Shown here piece by piece: positions 59 through 730 of a stretch of 45,560 nt of DNA. The notes under the pieces are model-generated. The model was not told the DNA's origin. It saw only the letters and a program-made list of their open reading frames with translations, and did no database searches. Each line of letters begins with the position of its first letter. Within the stretch, counting starts at the first letter, position 1. The position numbers and the translations under genes were made by a program. The stretch comes from Actinomycetota bacterium (GTDB lineage Bacteria; Actinomycetota; Thermoleophilia; Gaiellales; Gaiellaceae): the NCBI GenBank assembly GCA_013697275.1, contig JACCXC010000100.1, positions 1 to 45,560 of the forward strand. Direction: 5' to 3'.

Positions 59-646
59 CTAATCGTTCCGCGAGCTCGCGACCGAGGACACGCACTTGCC
101 GTACGCGTTCCGGCCCTCGCCGAAGACCTGGGCGAACGTCTTGCCGGCGTTCGCCGTCCCGGCCATGGCCGCCGTGAAGGCCGCCGGGTCGTTCTTCCAG
201 CTTCGGCACGTCTTCGCAGCGTTCACGAACGCGGCGCGACGGGCCTGGTTTCGCGCCCGCGCCACGGAGGAGACGCACTTGCCGTAAGCGTTCGCCCCGG
301 TGCCGTACACCTGCTCGAAGGTCTTCCCCTGGTTCGGCGTGCCGGCGACTGCGGCGGCGAACAAGGCCGAATCGGCCTTCCAGGCAGCGCACGTCTTCGC
401 GGCATTCATCCGCGCCTGCTGCATCGCGGCGGCCTCCCGCCTCGAGCAGTTCCGGAGGGCGGCGCGCGGGCTCCGGGTCAAGGGTGCGAAGGCCGCGTTG
501 AAGTTACGGGCGCCCATCTGCGCCTTGACGTTCTGGCACACCTTGACCGTCGCGTTCTGGTTCGCGTGCTCGTCCGGCCCGCCGGCTGCGGCGGTCGGCG
601 CGAGCGCTAGCGCGACGGCCGTCGTGACGATTCCAAGCTTCAGCAT
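59..646 (-). CDS. Secreted protein with tandem Cys-containing repeats
   Basis: Not recognised as a named family. I chose ATG at 646 over the upstream TTG at 667 because AAGGAGG lies a few bases before it. The product (195 aa) opens with a short hydrophobic signal peptide ending near an Ala-rich cleavage site, so it is probably exported. The C-terminal half holds two near-identical repeats of about 47 residues. Each has a K-T-C-x2-W-K start, an A-G-T-x-N-x-G-K-T-F-x-Q-V core and an N-A-Y-G-K-C-V-S-S-V-A end. Each repeat has two Cys, suggesting an intra-repeat disulfide. A more degenerate unit may precede them around residues 40-80. It faces the carboxyltransferase gene across a 115-bp divergent promoter region. 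No enzyme motif is visible, and a binding or structural role is only a guess. Confidence 0.8.
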   Translation of the reverse strand: MLKLGIVTTAVALALAPTAAAGGPDEHANQNATVKVCQNVKAQMGARNFNAAFAPLTRSPRAALRNCSRREAAAMQQARMNAAKTCAAWKADSALFAAAVAGTPNQGKTFEQVYGTGANAYGKCVSSVARARNQARRAAFVNAAKTCRSWKNDPAAFTAAMAGTANAGKTFAQVFGEGRNAYGKCVSSVASSRND

Positions 647-674
647 GTCCCTCCTTGGGTTCAGCAACCTTCTG

Positions 675-680
675 ACAGTA
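675..680 (-). promoter_or_regulatory. Candidate -10 box of the secreted repeat protein gene
   Basis: TACTGT on the minus strand, about 29 bp upstream of the ATG at 646, leaves a short leader that includes the AAGGAGG ribosome-binding site. The -35 region would fall close to the direct repeats at 703-730. Confidence 0.4.
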
Positions 681-702
681 ACCCGGGGCTATTGGTCTTC
701 CC

Positions 703-730
703 TAAGCAGTCCGTAAGCAAGGCGTAAGCG
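703..730. promoter_or_regulatory. Three direct repeats with 11-bp period between divergent genes
   Basis: TAAGCA, TAAGCA and TAAGCG start at 703, 714 and 725, each separated by exactly 5 bp; extended leftward they read CTAAGC, GTAAGC, GTAAGC. An 11-bp direct-repeat period on one helix face is the usual binding-site geometry of OmpR/PhoB-type response regulators. The array lies between the -10 boxes of the secreted protein (675-680, minus) and the carboxyltransferase (750-755, plus), covering the latter's expected -35 region. The regulator is not identified. Confidence 0.55.

Follow-up and report, generated by a model that had tools for sequence, protein, structure and literature searches.

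Operators of the OmpR/PhoB family of response regulators (RRs) follow a simple plan: direct repeats arranged head to tail, one helical turn (10-11 bp) apart, at a fixed position and in a fixed orientation relative to the -10 element. The PHO box of PhoP/PhoB in actinobacteria uses GTTCACC units, while the proteobacterial envelope-stress regulator CpxR has a GTAAA-N5-GTAAA box; a position directly upstream of a -10 box that lacks a -35 element is that of activating PhoB-like regulators. Other described sites are close in layout: Streptomyces coelicolor MtrA binds K-T-R-A-C-C-N5-G-T-K-A-C-N (PMC5650626); the WalR/YycF/VicR box, TGTWAH-N5-TGTWAH, serves a cell-envelope role in Firmicutes (PMC4168254); and the envelope regulon of CenR is comparable and also relies on direct repeats, the same paper mentioning three direct-repeat motifs for ArcA (PMC9275681). 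For Gaiellales, a literature search brought up no relevant work on regulons. Here we describe a triple repeat in 45,560 nt of contig sequence from a Gaiellaceae genome (the whole of this stretch is referred to as the window), and propose, with a probability of about 0.8, that it is a single operator through which a conserved OmpR/PhoB-family RR encoded elsewhere in the same genome would activate a secreted-protein gene and its own operon, the neighboring carboxyltransferase gene being a bystander.

A triple repeat between divergent genes

The original prediction described three (C/G)TAAGC hexamers, with exactly 5 bp between copies, at 703-730. The repeats are real and the gaps are as described, but the coordinates are one base off: the operator region is 702-729, with CTAAGC at 702-707, GTAAGC at 713-718 and GTAAGC at 724-729, three 6-mers with a period of 11. 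On the minus strand the array reads GCTTAC-N5-GCTTAC-N5-GCTTAG, so that half-sites 1 (724-729) and 2 (713-718) are identical and half-site 3 (702-707) is GCTTAG; these correspond to repeats 1 to 3 of the matrix described below, the third being the weaker repeat there. Together they make up a predicted 28-bp OmpR/PhoB-family operator (702-729, minus strand) facing the secreted-protein gene.

The array lies, as had been claimed, between two divergent genes. To its right, the plus strand encodes a carboxyltransferase subunit of a biotin-dependent acyl-CoA carboxylase (762-2321; PF01039, E=8.7e-154), whose -10 box, TAGGCT (750-755), is followed so closely by the GTG codon at 762 that its mRNA is probably leaderless; on that assumption the repeats cover the -35 region of this gene, at about -60 to -33. 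The carboxyltransferase is matched in 61 of 61 relatives, and its nearest named ones belong to metagenome-assembled genomes labelled Actinomycetota or Thermoleophilia, which makes Thermoleophilia the probable class of this uncultured actinobacterium. At the same time the repeats adjoin the -35 region of the gene to the left (59-646, minus strand). Its product, a secreted protein of 195 aa (MLKLGIVTTAVALALAPTAAAGG...) matched by no Pfam family, has two cysteine-containing repeats that end in NAYGKCVSSVA. The preferred start of this gene, ATG at 646 rather than TTG at 667, follows a Shine-Dalgarno sequence, AGGAGG (650-655, minus strand), and a -10 box, TACTGT (675-680, minus strand), which stands 21 bp past the operator and has no evident -35 element. 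With transcription taken to start ~7 bases past the -10 box, the operator spans about -61 to -34. Secreted proteins with cysteine repeats ending in NAFGKCV or NAYGKCV number at least two in this genome, the second being that of L004 (G000:C57:15854-16276).

Conservation in orthologous intergenic regions, one of the points named in the original prediction, is found in two relatives, G015 and G023, in which genes for relatives of the secreted protein are likewise divergent from the carboxyltransferase orthologue. The operator and its spacing are kept in all three genomes with this gene pair: 21 bp separate it from TACTGT in the window, TACCGT in G023 and TAGCGT in G015. The repeats, their orientation, this fixed spacing, their conservation and an architecture common with the RR operon can all be read directly from the DNA. 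Distant homologues of the secreted protein that are not encoded beside the carboxyltransferase mostly lack the site.

Number, placement and matrix scores of the sites

Is the motif rare enough to be meaningful? A genome search for GTAAGC-N5-GTAAGC, proposed along with the repeats to see whether hits sit upstream of genes, gave a split answer. The exact pair occurs twice in the 2.19 Mb of the own genome (0 for the reversed control), and in 103 family genomes there are 18 such pairs versus 13 control places; with one mismatch allowed, the own genome has 6 matches versus 7 for the reversed control, and with two, the window has 3 versus 3.4 expected from shuffles. Raw counts are thus near background, and we dropped enrichment as proof of function. 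Site placement, rather than raw number, is far from chance: gene calls around every exact pair in family genomes, made with a codon model that had verified genes as its training set, show 13 of the 17 distinct places to be intergenic, as compared to 4/13 in the control and 12.5% of random positions; of the other four, at least two (L043 and L046) resemble gene-caller errors. In the same survey, the genes behind most sites start like those of secreted proteins, as judged from the protein N-terminus, and GCTTAC-N5-GCTTAC, read by eye, points toward a secreted-like gene in about 12 of 14 cases.

A 28-bp matrix gives a more discriminating view. It was trained on 25 promoters of the RR operon described below, with the own genome and its near relative G023 left out, and it ranks 702-729 on the minus strand first over both strands of the window, at 21.3 bits; a shifted register of the same site scores 14.8 and the next independent site 4.7 bits, while in 200 dinucleotide shuffles of the window the maximum averages 8.0 and reaches 17.4. 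The own-genome RR-operon promoter scores 24.2 bits; other sampled loci of this genome stay at or below 10.9 bits, the 10.9-bit locus being a GTTCACC array, and 256 kb of other family loci hold a single site of 20 bits or more. Two further own-genome places were considered as targets and rejected: GTGAGC-N5-GTAAGC at C57:15762, before the secreted-protein gene of L004, lies in the opposite orientation in a locus that scores at most 5.2 bits, and the exact pair at C154:4150 falls at the 3' end of a called gene in a locus of at most 6.9 bits. Poor matrix scores at exact-pair sites in other genomes (L039, L040, L041, L049) suggest that other regulators may use similar repeats.

The complete architecture can be searched for as a 53-bp pattern, TTAC-N7-TTAC-N7-TNA-N22-TANNNT with up to two mismatches, in which three TTAC-type half-sites are followed by a -10 box 21 bp downstream. 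The own genome has exactly two matches, the window (0 mismatches) and the RR operon (1 mismatch), although these are not fully independent, unlike the matrix test, since the window site and the RR promoters partly shaped the pattern. With a relaxed -10 form there are 58 matches in 42 of the 129 genomes of the order and none in the reversed control; all 31 fetched matches are intergenic, and by our own count about 26 of them precede an RR operon or a gene for a secreted or membrane protein. One target recurs, a small secreted protein with a DWYxDGRIDxxYPxxCY-type motif (L246, L250, L254, L263, L264, L267, L268, L270), the gene of which is in several cases divergent from one for a polytopic, O-antigen-ligase-like membrane protein.

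A two-component operon and its promoter

The candidate regulator is encoded at C12:217-933 on the minus strand of its contig, one of 7 OmpR-type RR matches in the own genome, and combines a receiver with a Trans_reg_C domain (PF00072 and PF00486). In its operon, a conserved gene set, the RR gene stands between those for a small secreted protein and a HAMP-type sensor histidine kinase; a site equivalent to that in the window lies upstream. The link was also apparent in another genome, G001, where a triple repeat stands upstream of a secreted protein-RR operon whose RR has the C12 RR as its own-genome orthologue. Of 61 family genomes, 50 have a match to the RR at E <= 1e-70, in most cases as a single copy and with 68-89% identity; the search in G015, an 82%-complete genome that retains the operator, gave no match. 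Nearly all RR-operon promoters examined have three 11-bp TTAC-type repeats; a -10-like box, for the most part NATACT, begins exactly 21 bp past the third in 25 of the 27, the same fixed position and orientation as in the three orthologous regions that include the window. Kinase genes also occur next to motif-bearing secreted-protein genes elsewhere: another RR-histidine kinase pair is directly upstream of one in G093 (L116, C315), and a kinase gene of another in G090 (L159); the secreted protein at both loci (YRYVGQLQS...) resembles DUF5666 by eye.

How might such a system work? The kinase would sense an envelope or extracellular signal and bring about phosphorylation of the regulator, which would then bind head to tail to the three 11-bp units at about -61 to -34. 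Placed next to a -10 box without an evident -35 element, the bound regulator would recruit RNA polymerase and allow transcription of the secreted-protein gene (59-646, minus strand); the equivalent architecture at the C12 operon would lead to positive autoregulation. Because the operator takes the position used by activating PhoB-like regulators, we infer activation by the phosphorylated RR rather than repression; binding by the C12 RR and the nature of the signal are likewise proposed from sequence. Incidental interference with the -35 region of the carboxyltransferase gene may occur in this species.

A broader picture can be drawn, more tentatively. The two-component system would be clade-wide and might control little apart from itself and a small number of fast-changing secreted proteins, perhaps just one, with the secreted protein encoded first in the operon as a possible sensed or modulating partner. 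From genus to genus, its target might have been exchanged for a member of an unrelated secreted-protein family, with no change in operator geometry; we regard this picture as possible but somewhat doubtful. For a two-component system of an uncultured actinobacterial group, the analysis yields an operator sequence together with a candidate regulator, kinase and targets, and it ties secreted proteins of no known function to a signaling system.

Rival readings and known regulators

If the repeats sit between two promoters, do they control both genes? A shared operator that couples the secreted protein to acyl-CoA carboxylation, the new link between surface protein and metabolism put forward in the original prediction, has in its favor the overlap of the repeats with the carboxyltransferase -35 region in the window and the persistence of the divergent gene pair in two relatives. 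The geometry on this side is not constant, however: counted by hand, the last GTAAGC lies 20 bp from the carboxyltransferase -10 box in the window, but 30 bp from it in G015 and 34 bp in G023. Of 27 orthologues that lack the gene pair, 25 are without a site within 400 bp, the exceptions being a 15.7-bit site 188 bp away (L012) and a 9.8-bit site that faces another divergent secreted gene (L011). Many orthologues without repeats (among L014-L036) have TAGGCT or a close variant just ahead of the start codon, a placement that suggests a leaderless mRNA and a promoter thought to be independent of the repeats. Read on the plus strand, the window site fits the matrix poorly (-1.1 bits). Coupling of the two genes is thus quite unlikely, and the metabolic link is not supported: with a variable spacing and siteless orthologues on one side and a fixed 21 bp on the other, the operator most likely belongs to the secreted gene, and the carboxyltransferase is probably a divergent neighbor, not a conserved target.

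Even if the operator serves the secreted gene, which protein binds it? SARP/BTAD-type regulators likewise bind direct repeats of 11 bp, through a winged helix like that of OmpR, and three genomes have exact repeats directly before BTAD/SARP-type regulator genes: G096 (L044/L052, G096:C444, a triple), G007 (L046, G007:C80) and G028 (L039, G028:C61). (The gene divergent from the BTAD-type gene encodes a similar cupin-like protein, TIENPxTGERIVF, in G096 and G007.) A regulator of this type, which those three genes had suggested, was dropped as very improbable: PF03704 (BTAD) has no match in the own genome (G000) or in G015, and both keep the operator. A chance or non-functional repeat, for which the background frequency of the motif once mismatches are allowed and the modest total of exact pairs might speak, is scarcely credible given the position, orientation, -10 spacing, conservation in two relatives and the 58 versus 0 matches to the architecture pattern. 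Related regulators can share a motif, and with several OmpR-type RRs in the genome a different one, e.g., the most MtrA-like (C117:37232-37459), might bind the repeats, the secreted protein-RR-kinase operon being merely another of its targets. The equal period and similar half-sites of the S. coelicolor MtrA site (PMC5650626) favor this reading, as does the RR at locus L070, which reaches 284 bits against the 300-bit MtrA cut-off. But the strongest and most conserved sites belong to the operon with the C12-type RR gene, no site is present at L070 itself (0.4 bits) and, as weak evidence, none of six genomes of genus g11 has a site, with the RR unmatched in the four of them that were searched for it. 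We consider another OmpR-family regulator unlikely and favor the C12 RR.

How, then, does the proposed C12 operator compare with the known ones? The CpxR box, as its consensus is generally given, has a GTAA core and belongs to an envelope-stress regulator, but its period is 10, its half-site is different and it is proteobacterial. The PHO box is also a set of tandem 11-bp repeats upstream of a -10 element bound by OmpR/PhoB-family proteins, but the half-sites here are GTAAGC, not GTTCACC. The own genome has a PHO-box-like array as well: GTTCACC-type repeats with a period of 11 (GTTCACCGCTCGTTCACCATTCCTTCACC) on the minus strand of contig C116 (G000, L071, ~1642-1674), in the gap between an OmpR-type regulator gene and a divergent histidine kinase gene; thus, two distinct 11-bp operator types appear to coexist in this genome. 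Among solved structures, the closest to the C12 RR by sequence are RegX3 and MtrA, with M. tuberculosis RegX3 (PDB 2oqr) at the top, similar over the whole length at 205 bits, a likeness of sequence that need not mean orthology. The WalR/YycF/VicR box shares the period of 11 and the GTAA core (PMC4168254), but the half-site here ends in G, not A/T/C (CGTAAG and CCTAAG in this frame), and the C12 RR scores 225.6 bits with the YycF model, below its cut-off of 340. The MtrA box is alike in its two half-sites 5 bp apart, its OmpR-family regulator and a half-site, G/T-T-G/A-A-C-C, close to GTAAGC (PMC5650626); here, the fifth base is G instead of C, there are three repeats with a fixed 21 bp to the -10 box, and the C12 RR, at 233 bits, is below the NCBIfam MtrA cut-off of 300. 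The part of the original prediction that saw an OmpR/PhoB-type operator replacing a -35 element is supported, with the best matrix site in the window and an equivalent architecture at the RR operon, whereas MtrA or PhoP by name is not supported, in view of the model score and the separate GTTCACC repeat adjoining another RR. The operator is ordinary in kind but newly placed: it would define a new regulon of a known kind of regulator in an uncultured actinobacterial group.
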